Below, in pieces: positions 35,353 through 41,123 of a stretch of DNA of 64,000 nt. How positions within the stretch are numbered: position 1 is the stretch's first letter; each line of letters opens with the position of its first letter. Below the pieces are notes generated by a model. That model made no database searches. It saw only the letters and a program-made list of their open reading frames with translations, and was not told the DNA's origin. The position numbers and the translations under genes are program-made. Source of the DNA: Caulobacterales bacterium (GTDB lineage Bacteria; Pseudomonadota; Alphaproteobacteria; Caulobacterales; Caulobacteraceae); contig JACPDR010000045.1 of the NCBI GenBank assembly GCA_016183935.1, positions 1-64,000 of the forward strand, written 5' to 3'.

Positions 35353-36939
35353 TCAGTAGGCCGGCGCCCCGCCTTGATGCTCCGTCCGCCGTTCGAAATC
35401 GGCCTGGGCGCCGACGGTCGAGCGGCGATGCACCAGGGCCTCGGCCACGTGCCGGCGCAGCACCCCGTCGCAGCCGTCGAGGTCGGCGATGGTGCGGGCC
35501 AGCCGCAGCGTCCGCGTCCAGCCGCGCGCGGTCAGGCCGCCGCCCTCCCCCGCCCGCATCAGCAGGGCCCGGCCCGCCTCGTCAGGCCGGGCGAAGCGGT
35601 CGAGCGTCTCGCCCGAGGCGCGGGCGTTGACGGCCTGGTCCCGCGCCGTGTCCGGGTCGACGCCGGCGGCGCGCAGCCGGTCCTCCTGCAAGGCCCGGGC
35701 GGCGTGGACGCGGGCGGAGGCCTCGGCCGTGCCTTCGGCCGGCGGCGGCAGGGCCATGTCGGCGGCGGTGACCGGCGGCGTCTCCACCGTCAGGTCGATG
35801 CGGTCGAACATCGGCCCGGAGATGCGGTTCTGGTAGTCGCGCTGGCAGCGCGGCGCCTTGCCGCAGGCGCCCTTGCCGCCGCCGCCGAGACCGCAGCGGC
35901 ACGGGTTCATCGCCGCCACCAGCTGGAAGCGGGCCGGATAGCGGACATGGGCGTTGGCGCGGGCGACCACGATCTCGCCGGTCTCGAGCGGCTGGCGCAG
36001 CGAATCCAGAGCTTGGGCGGAGTATTCCGGGAGTTCATCGAGGAAGAGCACCCCGTTGTGCGCCAGCGAGGCCTCGCCCGGTTTGGCGCGCAGTCCGCCG
36101 CCGGTCAGCGCCGCCATCGAGGCCGAGTGATGCGGCGCGCGGAACGGCCGGTCGCGGGTCAGGGCGCCGCGCTCGATCAGTCCGGCCACCGACCAGATCA
36201 TCGAGGTCTCCAGCAGTTCCTTCGGCGTCAGTGGCGGCAGCAGGCCGGGCAGCCGCGCCGCCATCATCGACTTGCCCGAGCCCGGCGGGCCGACGAACAG
36301 CAGGTTGTGGCCGCCCGCCGCCGCGATCTCCAGCGCCCGCTTGGCGCTCTCCTGTCCCTTGACCTCCTTGAGGTCGGGCACGCGGTCGCCGGAACGCATC
36401 GCCCCCGGCTCGGGCCGGCGCAGCACCTGCACGCCCTTGAAGTGATTGACCAGGCCGATCAGCGAGCGCGGCGCCAACACCGCCACCTCGCCGGCCCAGG
36501 CCGCCTCGGGCCCGTTGGCCTCGGGGCAGATCAGGCCCAACCCCATGGCGTCGGCGGCCACGGCGGCGGGCAGGGTTCCGCCGACCGGGGCGATCTGTCC
36601 GTCCAGACCGAGCTCCCCGACCGCCGCCCAGCCCGCCAGGGCGTCGGCCGGGATGACGCCCATGGAGGCCAGCAGGGCGAGGGCGATGGGCAGGTCGAAA
36701 TGGCTGCCCTCCTTGGGCAGGTCGGCGGGCGCGAGGTTGGCGATGATCCGTTTGGGCGGCATGGCCAGGCCGATGCCGGCGAAGGCCCCGCGCACCCGCT
36801 CGCGGCTCTCGGCCACCGCCTTGTCGGCGAGGCCGACAATGACGAAGGACGGTTCGGCCGCCGACAGCTGCTGGACCTGCACGTCGACGCGCCGGGCGTC
36901 CACGCCCTCGAACGCCACCGTGACGACGCTGGCCACCAT
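35353..36939 (-). CDS. comM: YifB/ComM Mg-chelatase-like AAA+ ATPase
   Basis: A 528-residue protein of the ComM family, hexameric DNA branch-migration helicases that help integrate incoming DNA in transformation. An N-terminal ChlI-like domain (VVTVAFEGVDARRVDVQVQ, PADLPKEGSHFDLPIAL) is followed by the AAA+ core with Walker A FVGPPGSGKSMMAARLPG and Walker B GVLFLDELPEY. A zinc-like NPCRCG...CGKAPRCQ loop comes next. A strong GGGAGGGG ribosome-binding site precedes the ATG at 36939. The IS1595-family transposon ends only 18 bp upstream, separating it from gshB. Confidence 0.94.
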   Translation of the reverse strand: MVASVVTVAFEGVDARRVDVQVQQLSAAEPSFVIVGLADKAVAESRERVRGAFAGIGLAMPPKRIIANLAPADLPKEGSHFDLPIALALLASMGVIPADALAGWAAVGELGLDGQIAPVGGTLPAAVAADAMGLGLICPEANGPEAAWAGEVAVLAPRSLIGLVNHFKGVQVLRRPEPGAMRSGDRVPDLKEVKGQESAKRALEIAAAGGHNLLFVGPPGSGKSMMAARLPGLLPPLTPKELLETSMIWSVAGLIERGALTRDRPFRAPHHSASMAALTGGGLRAKPGEASLAHNGVLFLDELPEYSAQALDSLRQPLETGEIVVARANAHVRYPARFQLVAAMNPCRCGLGGGGKGACGKAPRCQRDYQNRISGPMFDRIDLTVETPPVTAADMALPPPAEGTAEASARVHAARALQEDRLRAAGVDPDTARDQAVNARASGETLDRFARPDEAGRALLMRAGEGGGLTARGWTRTLRLARTIADLDGCDGVLRRHVAEALVHRRSTVGAQADFERRTEHQGGAPAY

Positions 36940-36950
36940 CGGCCCCTCCC

Positions 36951-36957
36951 GCTATCC
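36951..36957. repeat. Target-site duplication, left copy (GCTATCC)
   Basis: The heptamer GCTATCC directly precedes the left terminal inverted repeat and recurs directly after the right one (40055-40061). If the first G of the left repeat is counted, the match becomes 8 bp (GCTATCCG), the duplication length usual for IS1595 elements. Intact duplications argue for a single, fairly recent insertion event. Confidence 0.85.
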
Positions 36958-36985
36958 GGCGTATATGTATTTGACAAACCCACCC
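36958..36985 (+). repeat. Left terminal inverted repeat of the transposon
   Basis: Begins GGCGTATATG and ends ACAAACCCACCC. It matches the reverse complement of 40027-40054 at 23 of 28 positions, with mismatches at positions 4, 8, 9, 11 and 20. The inner half (ATTTGACA-ACCCACCC) is best conserved and also supplies a consensus -35 element, TTGACA. Confidence 0.9.
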
Positions 36986-36998
36986 CATGATGTAGGGT
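36971..36998 (+). promoter_or_regulatory. Probable transposase promoter
   Basis: TTGACA (36971-36976, inside the left terminal repeat), a 16-bp spacer and TAGGGT (36993-36998) form a sigma-70-like promoter with a perfect -35 and weak -10. An AAGGAG ribosome-binding site follows at about 37006, 10 bp before the GTG start of the transposase. Confidence 0.5.
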
Positions 36999-37021
36999 GA
37001 GCGGGTAAGGAGAAACCCGCC

Positions 37022-38011
37022 GTGTCCGTTCTTTCGAAGCCCTACTTCCACGATGAAGCCGCCGCCTTCGCCTTCGTTGAAGGCATCATCTGGAACGGCG
37101 AGCCGTCGTGCCCGCACTGTGGCGTGGTCGGTCGGGCCTACGCGCTGAAGAACGTGCGCTCCAAGCCCTCCAAGAAGAACCCGGAAGGCGTGGTCCGCCA
37201 CGGCCTGAAGAAGTGCGGCGCTTGCCGTCAGCAGTTCACGGTCCGCAAGGGCACGATCTTTGAGGAAAGCCACCTGCCCCTGAACAAGTGGCTACAGGCG
37301 ATCTACCTCATGTGTTCCAGCAAGAAGGGCATTAGCGCCCTCCAGCTCCAGCGCACCCTTGAGGTCCAGTACAACACCGCGTGGTTCTTGGCCCACCGCA
37401 TCCGCGAGGCCATGCGCTCCGGCGATCTGGCTCCCTTCGGCATGAACGGCGAGACGGTCGAGGTCGATGAAACCTTCATCGGCAACGACACCGCCGCCCC
37501 GCGCCCGACCACTCAAACCAAGACGCGCACCATCAACCAGATGATGAAGGTCGTCTCGCTGGTTGAGCGCGAGAGCGGTCGCTCTCGCTCGTTCGTCGTG
37601 GACAACTACAGCGTCCAAGACATTGTCCCTATCGTGGAGGCCAACCTCGCGAAGGAAGCCCACCTGCGCACCGACGAGAGCCGCCTGTACAAGGTCATGG
37701 GCCGCTACTTCGCCAGCCACGAAACCACCACGCACAGCAAGGGCGAGTACGTCCGCCTGTCCGACCGCACCATCCATACCAACACGGTTGAAGGCTACTT
37801 CTCGATCTTCAAGCGCGGCATGAAGGGCGTCTATCAGCACTGCTCCAAGAAGCACCTGCACCGCTATCTGGCGGAGTTCGATTTCCGCTACTCGAACCGT
37901 TCGGCGACCGGCTGTGAAGATCAAGAGCGGGCGCTGCGGGCGGTGCTGGGAGGCATCGGGAAGCGCCTGACCTACCGCAGGCCTGATCTCGGGGCCGAAG
38001 CCTCCACCTAA
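37022..38011 (+). CDS. IS1595-family transposase
   Basis: A 329-residue transposase starting at a GTG with AAGGAG upstream. An N-terminal zinc ribbon (CPHC at 30-33, CGAC at 65-68) and the phrase FTVRKGTIFEESHLPLNKWL are IS1595 hallmarks. The ISXO2-like catalytic domain has Asp about 149 (VEVDETFIG), Asp about 218 (LRTDES) and Asn about 254 (HTNTVEGYFSIFKRG), giving the DDN-type triad of several IS1595 subgroups. The frame is intact, so the element may be active. Confidence 0.95.
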   Translation: MSVLSKPYFHDEAAAFAFVEGIIWNGEPSCPHCGVVGRAYALKNVRSKPSKKNPEGVVRHGLKKCGACRQQFTVRKGTIFEESHLPLNKWLQAIYLMCSSKKGISALQLQRTLEVQYNTAWFLAHRIREAMRSGDLAPFGMNGETVEVDETFIGNDTAAPRPTTQTKTRTINQMMKVVSLVERESGRSRSFVVDNYSVQDIVPIVEANLAKEAHLRTDESRLYKVMGRYFASHETTTHSKGEYVRLSDRTIHTNTVEGYFSIFKRGMKGVYQHCSKKHLHRYLAEFDFRYSNRSATGCEDQERALRAVLGGIGKRLTYRRPDLGAEAST

Positions 38012-38097
38012 ACCGAAGCGGCGGCGTCGGTCCCGGTGGCGGCGCAAGTCCTGAGTCCTTGCTAATTCAGGCGAATTCTCTATTGTCCACAATTGCA

Positions 38098-38271
38098 CAC
38101 AGGCGCGAACGGATTGGACCCGCCGCGCCTGTGCTCCTTACCCCTTCTGGAAGGGGGCAGGGTCTGCCGAGAGCCGATTGAAGGCCGCTACCTTCCTTGT
38201 CACGGGATCGGGGTAGCGGCCTTTCCTGCTTCTCCGGGCCCGCAACGCCGGTCGGCGTGAACGCTGCGGGC
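38098..38271 (+). ncRNA. Candidate structured RNA: run of hairpins in the transposon's non-coding region
   Basis: The 417-bp stretch 38012-38428 holds no convincing gene but a series of strong stems. P1: CACAGGCGCG (38098-38107) with CGCGCCTGTG (38124-38133), 10 bp perfect. P2: CCCCTT-CTGG-AAGGGG (38141-38156). P3: AAGGCCGCTACC (38181-38192) with GGTAGCGGCCTT (38212-38223), 12 bp perfect and followed by TCCTGCTTCT. P4: GCCCGCA (38238-38244) with TGCGGGC (38265-38271), enclosing ACGCC-GGTC-GGCGT. P3 could simply be a terminator. Four perfect stems in 175 bp suggest a folded transcript; the strand and function are inferred. Confidence 0.4.
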
Positions 38272-38428
38272 TCTCACTCTCCTGAACATGGTGAACCTCC
38301 AGCAACGGTTTTGGCGCCGAATCGAGGGGCCGTCAACTGGATTGCTTGATTGCTTCACCGCCACCCCCTCCGTTGCTTTTCTAGGTTGCCTCGTATATGG
38401 GGGTTATGCAGACGCAGGAGCTAACGTC

Positions 38429-39223
38429 ATGACCCGCAGCCGCAGCCCCGGATACCCGAACTTCTCCCTTGGTGCCGCCGTGAAGCGCGCGGAGCGCATC
38501 TTCGCAGCCGACCGTAAGAACCCTATCGAGCGAGAGGTTGCGGCTCAGCATATGGGTTATGCGGGGATTAGTGGTGCGGCCGACAAGGCGCTGGCTACCA
38601 TGATGCACTACGGCCTTCTGGAGCGTGTGGGGAAGGGCCAGGTGAAGGTTGCGCAACGGGCGATAGACATTTTGCATCCGAGTACCGATGCCGAGCGTCG
38701 GGCCGCGTTGCGCGAAGCTGCGTTCCGACCCCAACTTTTCGCGACGCTTCAGGAGCGGTTCCCTGACGGAGCCTCCGAAAGCACCCTCCGATCGTTCTTG
38801 GTTCGGGAGGACTTTTTGGAGCGAGCCATCGGGCCTGCCCTCAGTGCCTATGAGGAAACTTGCTCGTTCTTGAAGCAAGAGGGCGCTTACGGAAGTCGTG
38901 GACCTGACGAACCAGACGAGGAAGAATTGGGTCCTGACGACTACGAGGACCCCGCCATGAATGAAGTCGAAACCATCACGCGTCGCCAGCCGCCACCGCC
39001 CCCTCTGCTGCCACCCGCGCCGGGCGCGGACATTCCGCCGGGGATGCGGAAGTTCGTCATCAACCTGCCGGATGGCGGGGACGCCATCCTTGCCTACCCT
39101 GCGGGAATGACGGCGGAGGGCTATCAGGACCTTGAGGACTATCTCAGCCTGTTCTTCAAGAAGGCGAAGCGCGCGACTCCCCCGCCAGCCGAGGACGACG
39201 ACCTAAGCTCAATCTTGGGGTAA
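38429..39223 (+). CDS. Transposon passenger protein, probable winged-helix N-terminus, function unknown
   Basis: A 264-residue protein. The ATG at 38429 follows GGAG by 8 bp, and homology-like composition begins there (MTRSRSPGYPNFSLGAAVKR); the frame opens earlier at 38288. Residues about 10-80 read like a winged helix-turn-helix (EREVAAQHMGYAGISGAADK, then MMHYGLLERVGKGQVKV). An acidic stretch (DEPDEEELGPDDYEDP), a proline run and a C-terminal segment with MRKFVINLPDGGDAILAYPA follow. It may be a DNA-binding regulator of the element or an accessory function. No family is recognised with confidence. Confidence 0.75.
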   Translation: MTRSRSPGYPNFSLGAAVKRAERIFAADRKNPIEREVAAQHMGYAGISGAADKALATMMHYGLLERVGKGQVKVAQRAIDILHPSTDAERRAALREAAFRPQLFATLQERFPDGASESTLRSFLVREDFLERAIGPALSAYEETCSFLKQEGAYGSRGPDEPDEEELGPDDYEDPAMNEVETITRRQPPPPPLLPPAPGADIPPGMRKFVINLPDGGDAILAYPAGMTAEGYQDLEDYLSLFFKKAKRATPPPAEDDDLSSILG

Positions 39224-39234
39224 GAGGGGTGCCC

Positions 39235-39381
39235 ATGACCGACACCCCTAAGCCCCAAGCTGACAAGTTCCGCGACATGGCCCGCGAGCTAGAGTGCGAC
39301 GAGGACGAAGCCGCCTTTGAGGACAAGGTGCGGAAGGTGGCGACCGCGCCAAAGCCGCCCGAGCCTGCGGACAAGTCCTGA
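39235..39381 (+). CDS. Small acidic passenger protein
   Basis: A 48-residue ORF, MTDTPKPQADKFRDMARELE at its start, followed by CDEDEAAFEDKVRKVATAPK. It has a highly charged helix, no membrane segment, and starts 11 bp after the stop of the 264-residue gene with AAGAGGGG upstream. Small proteins with this DKF..MARELECDEDEAAF pattern are, to my memory, frequent companions in mobile elements, but no function is known. Coupled by TGATG overlap to the next ORF. Confidence 0.65.
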   Translation: MTDTPKPQADKFRDMARELECDEDEAAFEDKVRKVATAPKPPEPADKS

Positions 39382-39821
39382 TGGCTGGGGATGGCGTAGC
39401 CGAGCTACGTTCGCGGCCCGTGAACAGAACTGGAACATCGATCCGGTTCGTGCCTATGATCGATCATCTCCCGAGCCGAGTCGGAGCCAGTCGATTGAAG
39501 GCCGTCACCCTCATTGTCGAACTGAAGCGTGATCTACAGTTCTGTCAGGACGAGATCGCGTTCCTCATGTCCAAGATGCCAGCCTATAGCGAGAAGGTCA
39601 TGCATGGAGCCCGCATGATCGGCTTCCTCATGCCCGCCCACAACATTCTGCCCGCGATGCGGGCGCCGCTGCACAATGCGTTGTCCGTGTTCGAGAACTA
39701 CTGGTTCATCGGCGTGAGTGGTGAGGTTCTAGCCAAGAACGGCTCATTCGATCCACTCGCCAGCGCCATCAAGCAGTACACCGTGCCTCCGATCAGGGGC
39801 CGGGAGAGGGCGAAGCCCTAA
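39381..39821 (+). CDS. Hypothetical passenger protein
   Basis: A 146-residue ORF whose ATG overlaps the previous stop (TGATG). The first about 25 residues (MAGDGVAELRSRPVNRTGTS) look unlike a conserved start, so MIDHLPSRV further in is an alternative. The body (LIVELKRDLQFCQDEIAFLM, then MHGARMIGFLMPAHNILPAM) is amphipathic and helical. No family is recognised. Its reality rests mainly on translational coupling and position inside the element. Confidence 0.45.
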   Translation: MAGDGVAELRSRPVNRTGTSIRFVPMIDHLPSRVGASRLKAVTLIVELKRDLQFCQDEIAFLMSKMPAYSEKVMHGARMIGFLMPAHNILPAMRAPLHNALSVFENYWFIGVSGEVLAKNGSFDPLASAIKQYTVPPIRGRERAKP

Positions 39822-40026
39822 AACGTGCCTGCACGTTAGGTGCGGCAACCACGGCAGCAGCCGCCGGTCGATCATCTCATAGGCCGCACAATCGGTGAGG
39901 TGGCGACGGAAACCCTCGCTCCAAGCGAGCGGCGTCAACGCGCAGATCAAGCTCAGCGGTCGCACGTCACCACTCCCCATCATGGGGGGCACGCTTGGCC
40001 GAATTGCCTATCAGGCCGTTAAGTTC

Positions 40027-40054
40027 GGGTGGGTGTGTCAAATGCGGATATGCC
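40027..40054 (-). repeat. Right terminal inverted repeat of the transposon
   Basis: On the minus strand this begins GGCATATCCG and ends ACACACCCACCC, pairing with the left repeat at 36958-36985 (23 of 28). Between the last passenger ORF and this repeat (39822-40026) no gene is supported; the stretch holds two small palindromes, AACGTGC-CT-GCACGTT (39822-39837) and CCCCAT-C-ATGGGG near 39974. Confidence 0.9.
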
Positions 40055-40061
40055 GCTATCC
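40055..40061. repeat. Target-site duplication, right copy (GCTATCC)
   Basis: Matches 36951-36957. The following base is G, so the copy can be read as GCTATCCG, the 8-bp form. The remaining 47 bp to the gshB stop (40062-40108) represent the original gshB-comM spacer. Confidence 0.85.
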
Positions 40062-40108
40062 GCGAGAGAACGAACCATGAACCGACAACCTTGGCAAGAG
40101 CGGCGTTG

Positions 40109-41062
<954 letters not shown>

Positions 41063-41123
41063 GCCCTGTCCTTCCAAGCGGGGGGAGCTTGGCTAATGGG
41101 CAGCGGGGACGGCGAGCGCAACC

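Follow-up and report, generated by a model that had tools for sequence, protein, structure and literature searches.

A complete IS1595-family transposon between comM and its predicted LexA operator, and the likely preference of its clade for LexA-controlled promoters

Insertion at the comM-gshB site

Does a transposon that parts two neighbouring genes reach such a place by chance, or does it belong to a clade that favours sites of this kind? The question is raised by a 64,000-nucleotide stretch of a Brevundimonas-type Caulobacterales genome (assembly GCA_016183935.1, contig JACPDR010000045.1, positions 1 to 64,000), which we call the window. Here a complete IS1595-family transposon of 3,097 bp, at 36958-40054, lies between comM and gshB and carries, between its inverted ends, a transposase and three further open reading frames (ORFs), p1, p2 and p3. 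We consider it probable that this complete transposon stands between comM and the predicted LexA operator of that gene, and that its clade likely prefers LexA-controlled promoters while exchanging its passenger genes. The reading starts from four observations: the anatomy of the element, empty sites in relatives, three blocks that elements share while the cargo in between is unrelated, and LexA-type boxes in excess beside the insertions.

The element has the DDE and zinc-ribbon domains, the terminal inverted repeats and the 8-bp target duplication that mark the IS1595 family. Its transposase matched the Pfam families DDE_Tnp_IS1595 (111.5 bits, cutoff 27) and Zn_ribbon_IS1595 (36.3, cutoff 25.4) and the NCBIfam IS1595 model (196.9, cutoff 75). 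Among the residues that bear on a putative D-D-N triad, D149, D218 and E257 were invariant and N254 was nearly so across 13 aligned transposases. An earlier note made from the letters alone had described a complete, passenger-bearing member of this family, recently inserted, with 28-bp repeats matching at 23 positions, a 7-bp GCTATCC duplication (8 bp with a shared boundary base) and 18 bp from the repeat to the comM start. The domains, the 23/28 ends (Table 1), the duplication and the three further ORFs all agreed with this description, the 18 bp proved exact, and the recent date of the insertion holds. The two GCTATCC copies sit within a 9-bp repeat common to both sides, CGCTATCCG, which agrees with a target duplication of 8 bp if one base is taken as ambiguous. 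The element is more than a chance pattern: a further 181 delimited elements likewise have inverted ends, an 8-bp duplication and extra DNA.

A gshB search matched 61/61 genomes, and 30 loci were given, the window's own and those of 29 relatives. Both genes lay within the fetched locus in 28 of the 29. They are 57-182 bp apart in 23/28 relatives and about 0.8 kb apart in 5/28, and the separation of comM from gshB by the insertion, as the note had proposed, was thus confirmed. At this site the element is absent from the relatives of the window genome. The check suggested at the time, a search for an empty site in related genomes, also succeeded: the string CGGATAGCG runs uninterrupted in two relatives (L095 and L101), and in both of them the LexA-type box is followed by the same target string, GGATAGCG.

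The motif GTTCN7GTTC is the LexA-box form of alphaproteobacteria. In 27 of the 28 relatives an exact copy precedes the comM ATG by 20-27 bp, a conserved box near the gene start as expected of an operator, with LexA binding itself being predicted. In the window the insertion has left the box on the side of gshB, with 13 bp between box and element and 3,128 bp between box and comM, so that the suspected parting of comM from its upstream control region was upheld. Separated from its box, comM has probably lost SOS control in the window genome; the ribosome-binding region, judged by eye, stays with the gene. PMC6473078 discusses the GTTC and GAAC consensus motifs and, citing Erill 2004, counts ComM as part of the core SOS set in C. 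crescentus and S. meliloti.

The wider gshB-comM gap of about 0.8 kb was seen in L097, L113, L119, L120 and L121, four of which keep GTTCN7GTTC close to comM. A different IS1595-relative element lies inside comM, next to gshB, at L084:2798-6564 (G129:C38). It has 24/24 ends, a GAGTTCCC duplication, a transposase about 31% identical and a p1 homologue 50% identical, and is a second p1-bearing element at comM, in another genus. Another G129 contig carries an element listed under Henriciella marina.

LexA-type boxes beside related elements

Related elements, delimited by their inverted ends and duplication, were gathered in two sets. A transposase search matched 61/200 order-level relatives. Relatives contributed 40 elements, five with ends set by hand (including L045, which ends at a contig end on the right), and the partial elements L056 and L083 were dropped. 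A genome_contigs scan across Alphaproteobacteria gave 80 loci, the best of 564 confirmed, of which 60 were delimited and 56 remained after removal of 4 duplicates. The first set comprised 96 elements, the window's included. The second set was drawn from 40 regions class-wide, 20 in another order and 60 in the window's own order, part of the listed matches being fetched. It comprised 34 + 52 = 86 new elements after removal of exact duplicates (6 and 3), while 22/62 and 8/63 transposase copies could not be delimited. The elements measured 1,857-4,306 bp, the duplication was 8/8 in most delimited relatives, and none of the 182 delimited elements was a bare insertion sequence (IS).

The 190 flanks of the first set were read towards the element for exact GTTCN7GTTC. 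The box stood at a gap of 12-15 bp in 8/96 elements (12 bp five times, 13 bp once, 15 bp twice), against 0.008 expected from the rate at 80-585 bp; it occurred at two other gaps within 0-79 bp, and once it pointed away. A gap of 12-15 bp was found in 1/86 elements of the second set (0.024 expected, P 0.024), which supports the strict spacing weakly. The variant GTTCN7GAAC stood at exactly 12 bp in five mmcB elements, in both element orientations, and at one other gap within 0-199 bp. In a wider count, which accepted exact GTTCN7GTTC in both orientations up to 60 bp past the duplication, the box was present in 10/96 and 10/86 elements of the two sets. Among regions upstream of flank genes, the control, it was present in 5/592 (binomial P 1.1e-8 and 3.6e-9). 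No pair among the 20 box-bearing elements had transposases at least 90% identical, the closest pairs reaching 88%. Their targets included comM (three times), mmcB and recA.

A shared chassis with exchanged cargo

Three features go beyond the earlier note: the target preference, a conserved p2 ORF and the exchange of cargo. The p2 profile, built from 17 members and refined once on the same ORFs, matched 56/56 genome_contigs elements and 21/40 from relatives, and in the flanks of the 56 it matched 3/4,153 ORFs (L144 twice, L190). Type B is defined by a second profile, that of a different small ORF which mostly lies on the opposite strand; this profile matched 21/40 elements from relatives, 20 of these 21 having been used to build it. 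L066 and L080 count under both profiles, and each of the 96 elements has one or the other. In the second set, p2 was present in 44/86, only the B form in 31 and neither in 11. The constancy of p2 hints that it may contribute to transposition.

Elements that are nearly identical line up chiefly in three stretches: the transposase with the left end, roughly 100 bp within p2, and the right end. The 74 elements whose p2 lies on the plus strand yielded 42 pairs with at least 80% transposase DNA identity. The p2 core aligned in 38 of these pairs; slot 1, the stretch from transposase to p2, did not align over half its length in any pair, and slot 2 did in 1/34. Cargo class changed 33 times on a 77-row transposase tree, two rows of which are the type-B L066 and L080, with a shuffled mean of 34.1. 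L155, L164 and L173 have transposase branches of about 0.01, yet their cargo is DUF3800, p1 and another gene, respectively. In L083, the transposase was 89% identical over 61 residues and p2 92%, p1 only 27%.

As cargo, p1 recurs in L130 and L164, and p1 homologues also occur without this transposase nearby. The earlier note had counted passengers without the transposase ends as a point against itself; such passengers exist for the p1 family, and the element, with its exact ends, is untouched by them. The right-hand slots of L044 and L046 hold a common 947-bp cargo block, 78% identical and oppositely oriented.

Recurrent target loci

Comparison of flanks placed 61/182 elements at eight loci: a DnaA_C-domain gene (20), a terminase operon (13), mmcB (8), an S24-peptidase regulator (7), a radical-SAM gene (5), comM (3), a dnaE-type gene (3) and recA (2). 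A Pfam scan of nearest genes (133 genes from 116 elements; 25 of 54 families shown) supports the DnaA_C, S24, Radical_SAM, MmcB and ComM domains, and recA, the dnaE-type gene, the terminase operon, radC (L122), ImuA (L309) and UvrD (L134) were identified by eye. At the DnaA_C, mmcB, S24, dnaE-type and recA sites the gene is found to the one side of some elements and to the other side of others, which argues for repeated insertion there. Outside the window, comM adjoins elements in a Hyphomicrobium (L165) and in Rhizobiaceae (L191 and L142, the ends of L142 not being delimited). In L165 and L191, gshB is on the other side of the element, as in the window.

The terminase-site elements (L130, L152, L155, L159, L160, L161, L164, L169, L172, L173, L178, L181 and L201) are mostly in sphingomonad genomes and all lie in the same orientation upstream of the operon, which by eye resembles a gene-transfer-agent cluster. 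L240 (G277:C85) holds two clade elements back to back, one of which neighbours a recA-type gene that has box-like motifs close by. The search of the genome to which the window belongs (95.33% complete) showed no second copy of the element, only a relative on contig C28. This is a type-B element with its own cargo (L091:4476-6994, G000:C28), just upstream of an S24-peptidase regulator, and its site is common to six further elements.

Cargo content

From the 56 genome_contigs elements, 106 cargo ORFs with a length of 120 aa or more were surveyed (Pfam, E 0.001). The matches were DUF3800 (19), PIN (8), DUF5343 (3), the SocA/Panacea antitoxin (3), NYN (2), PemK (1) and ten further families. Because these sum to 48, more than half of the 106 ORFs have no family at this threshold. 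Local DUF3800 and PIN profiles matched 0/379 flank ORFs. DUF3800 is described in the accessible text of PMC10910872 as an RNase H-like fold near CRISPR effectors. PADLOC identified BstA and HEC-09, twice each and with strong E-values, together with PD-Lambda-2_C and cll. L050 (Brevundimonas sp. AAP58; the same as L129) carries both PD-Lambda-5 genes (1.3e-177 and 5.5e-117), and L058 carries PDC-S33 (1.4e-123). Type-B cargo often has, by eye, an R-N-x-x-x-H motif like that of HEPN proteins, and ten type-B cargo proteins scanned gave no Pfam match above cutoff. Where the cargo can be named, it is often of toxin or defence type (DUF3800, PIN, one full PD-Lambda-5).

Features of the element

The passenger ORFs probably do not extend over the whole of their longest open frames. 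In the p1, p2 and p3 frames scanned, Pfam gave no family above cutoff, and the p3 frame from 39381 had no family in the Pfam or NCBIfam scans. For p1 the prediction is a winged-helix DNA-binding protein. Homologues listed number 82 proteins for p1 (including p1 itself), 328 for p2 and 22 for p3 (including p3 itself). The GC content of the element is 61.8%, compared with 70.3% for the whole window. A 30-nt direct repeat (83%) at 38172-38201 and 39489-39518 flanks p1-p2 inside the element. A second GTTCN7GTTC, on the minus strand at 39422-39436, lies between p2 and p3; the motif occurs only twice in the whole window, and this internal copy may be due to chance.

Table 1. Coordinates of the transposon, its parts and the adjoining genes in the window
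Feature	Position	Strand	Remarks
comM	35353..36939	-	Mg_chelatase and ChlI domains; start codon 18 bp from element
Left target duplication copy	36951..36957	.	GCTATCC; 8-9 bp with shared boundary bases
Left terminal inverted repeat	36958..36985	+	23/28 match to right end
IS1595-family transposase, 329 aa, GTG start	37022..38011	+	PF12762, PF12760; NF033547
12-bp perfect inverted repeat 3' of transposase	38181..38223	.	hairpin, possible terminator (putative function)
Passenger p1, 264 aa	38429..39223	+	predicted winged-helix N-terminal half and variable C-terminal hairpin-helix module
p2, 48-aa conserved companion ORF	39235..39381	+	profile match; two helices predicted, low-confidence model
Passenger p3, 108 aa, TTG start	39495..39821	+	longer frame from 39381; no family; 22 proteins listed
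Right terminal inverted repeat	40027..40054	-	28 bp
Right target duplication copy	40055..40061	.	GCTATCC
Predicted LexA (SOS) operator of comM, GTTCATGGTTCGTTC	40068..40082	-	13 bp from element; motif kept in 27/28 relatives
gshB	40109..41077	-	GSH-S domains

Alternative explanations

Several results weigh against a preference for LexA-controlled promoters combined with cargo exchange. The window's element is one of the eight with a gap of 12-15 bp and itself prompted the spacing test, so that the spacing was found post hoc. Gaps of 10-17 bp were set as the prediction before the second set, and there only 1/86 elements had such a box (L347, gap 12). The 60-bp test and its P values belong to a choice made after both sets had been seen, and 162/182 elements have no exact box within that distance. 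The largest locus, the DnaA_C site (20 elements, 16 of them type B), showed no exact box in the five sites inspected, and neither did the seven S24 sites inspected. TAGG precedes the duplications on one or both sides at these five and seven sites, and type B thus seems to use another target signal. As for the cargo, PADLOC at E 1e-5 barely separated it from the flanks (18 summed over families versus 11); since length-matched flank ORFs gave 11 families, with one match each and a best value of 1.8e-35, the PADLOC counts alone do not establish a defence enrichment. The terminase (13/13) and radical-SAM (5/5) elements are all one-sided, and these sites may therefore be inherited.

Such one-sidedness would be expected if every shared site went back to one ancient insertion per locus, with the cargo replaced in place by recombination. 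We regard this as improbable in general, because both orientations occur at the mmcB, S24, DnaA_C, dnaE-type and recA sites, the transposases of the three delimited comM elements are only 61-64% identical, and the window genome's relatives are empty at the comM-gshB site. A general taste for short AT-rich promoters is an unlikely explanation, though a less remote one; elements next to SOS genes would then be the ones that persisted, their insertion being tolerated or useful there, and the spacing would reflect the AT-rich part of such promoters. The target duplications are indeed AT-rich with G/C just outside, and many nearest genes are not SOS genes. However, the box was found in only 5/592 flank-gene promoters versus 20/182 elements, and the distance from box to element is similar for a gene on the side of the box (mmcB) and for one across the element from it (comM). 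It is very improbable that an ordinary IS1595-family transporter IS (tIS) landed upstream of comM by chance, with nothing special about the target. Passenger-bearing IS1595 elements (tIS, ISNha5) are known from the accessible literature, but members of the same clade separate comM from gshB in a Hyphomicrobium and in a Rhizobiaceae genome, and a further one (L142) adjoins comM elsewhere, and the box excess was seen in two sets.

The preference for LexA-controlled promoters can also be put in a stronger form, which we offer tentatively. The clade might use LexA-bound operators as landing beacons, homing to a fixed point a few bases past the SOS box of genes for DNA repair and DNA uptake (comM, mmcB, recA, radC, dnaE-type) and rewiring the host's damage response, while transposase, p2 and ends would form a chassis for interchangeable toxin and defence cassettes. 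The main reading itself includes a mechanism: most likely operator DNA or the LexA-DNA complex is recognised by the transposase, with or without p2, and the ends are joined a few bases past the operator. Recombination would replace the cargo, sparing the transposase, p2 and ends, and toxin- or defence-type cargo would pay for its own carriage. If the main reading is right, a widespread clade of alphaproteobacterial transposons lands at SOS operators, and insertion would alter the control of DNA repair and competence. At 2-4 kb the clade would, moreover, be a very small carrier by which toxin- and defence-type genes are spread and swapped, and its cargo slots would provide a handle for finding new defence genes. 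Both claims, SOS-operator landing and the cargo vehicle, are testable in a lab strain.

Comparison with known systems

Tn7-like transposons use chosen target sites, and the res-site hunters of the Tn5053 type are site-seeking transposons whose target is defined by a host DNA-protein site; the site here is instead a predicted LexA operator. In Acinetobacter, comM is a repeated target of mobile DNA, the AbaR resistance islands. The present element is a different one and stands upstream of comM beside the operator, whereas AbaR lies inside the gene. According to the accessible text of PMC8649781, Tn7-like transposons with defence cargo combine few core genes with very variable cargo that includes toxin-antitoxin and defence genes, and the present clade follows the same core-plus-variable-cargo plan. 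It differs in having a single IS1595 transposase and a length of about 2-4 kb. A Pfam scan of five element ORFs gave the IS1595 domains and one sub-cutoff match, not the TnsA-TnsD core genes of a Tn7-like transposon.

Among the papers listed on IS1595 with anti-phage, toxin-antitoxin or cargo, covered in titles and abstract openings with most subscription journals outside the scope, none seemed to describe such a transposon, and a search for LexA with transposon targets, again with most subscription journals outside its scope, gave no paper that matched four of its five terms. The accessible parts of several papers deal with the family itself: tIS and ISNha5 with passenger regulators (PMC11891212, citing Siguier 2009), the IS1595 subgroups (PMC8101967), tIS in ISsaga (PMC3129680), and IS1595 elements of about 1 kb with one ORF in Xanthomonas and Ralstonia (PMC11092175). 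A tIS is recognised by IS ends together with passenger genes that transposition does not need; in the present clade passengers are present and exchanged between relatives. With the passenger-bearing IS1595 members (tIS; the ISNha5 and ISNwi1 subgroups), as far as the accessible texts describe them, the element shares its transposase domains, inverted ends, 8-bp duplication and passengers. It differs from the tIS described there in its conserved p2 ORF, the near-complete turnover of cargo and the proximity to LexA boxes.

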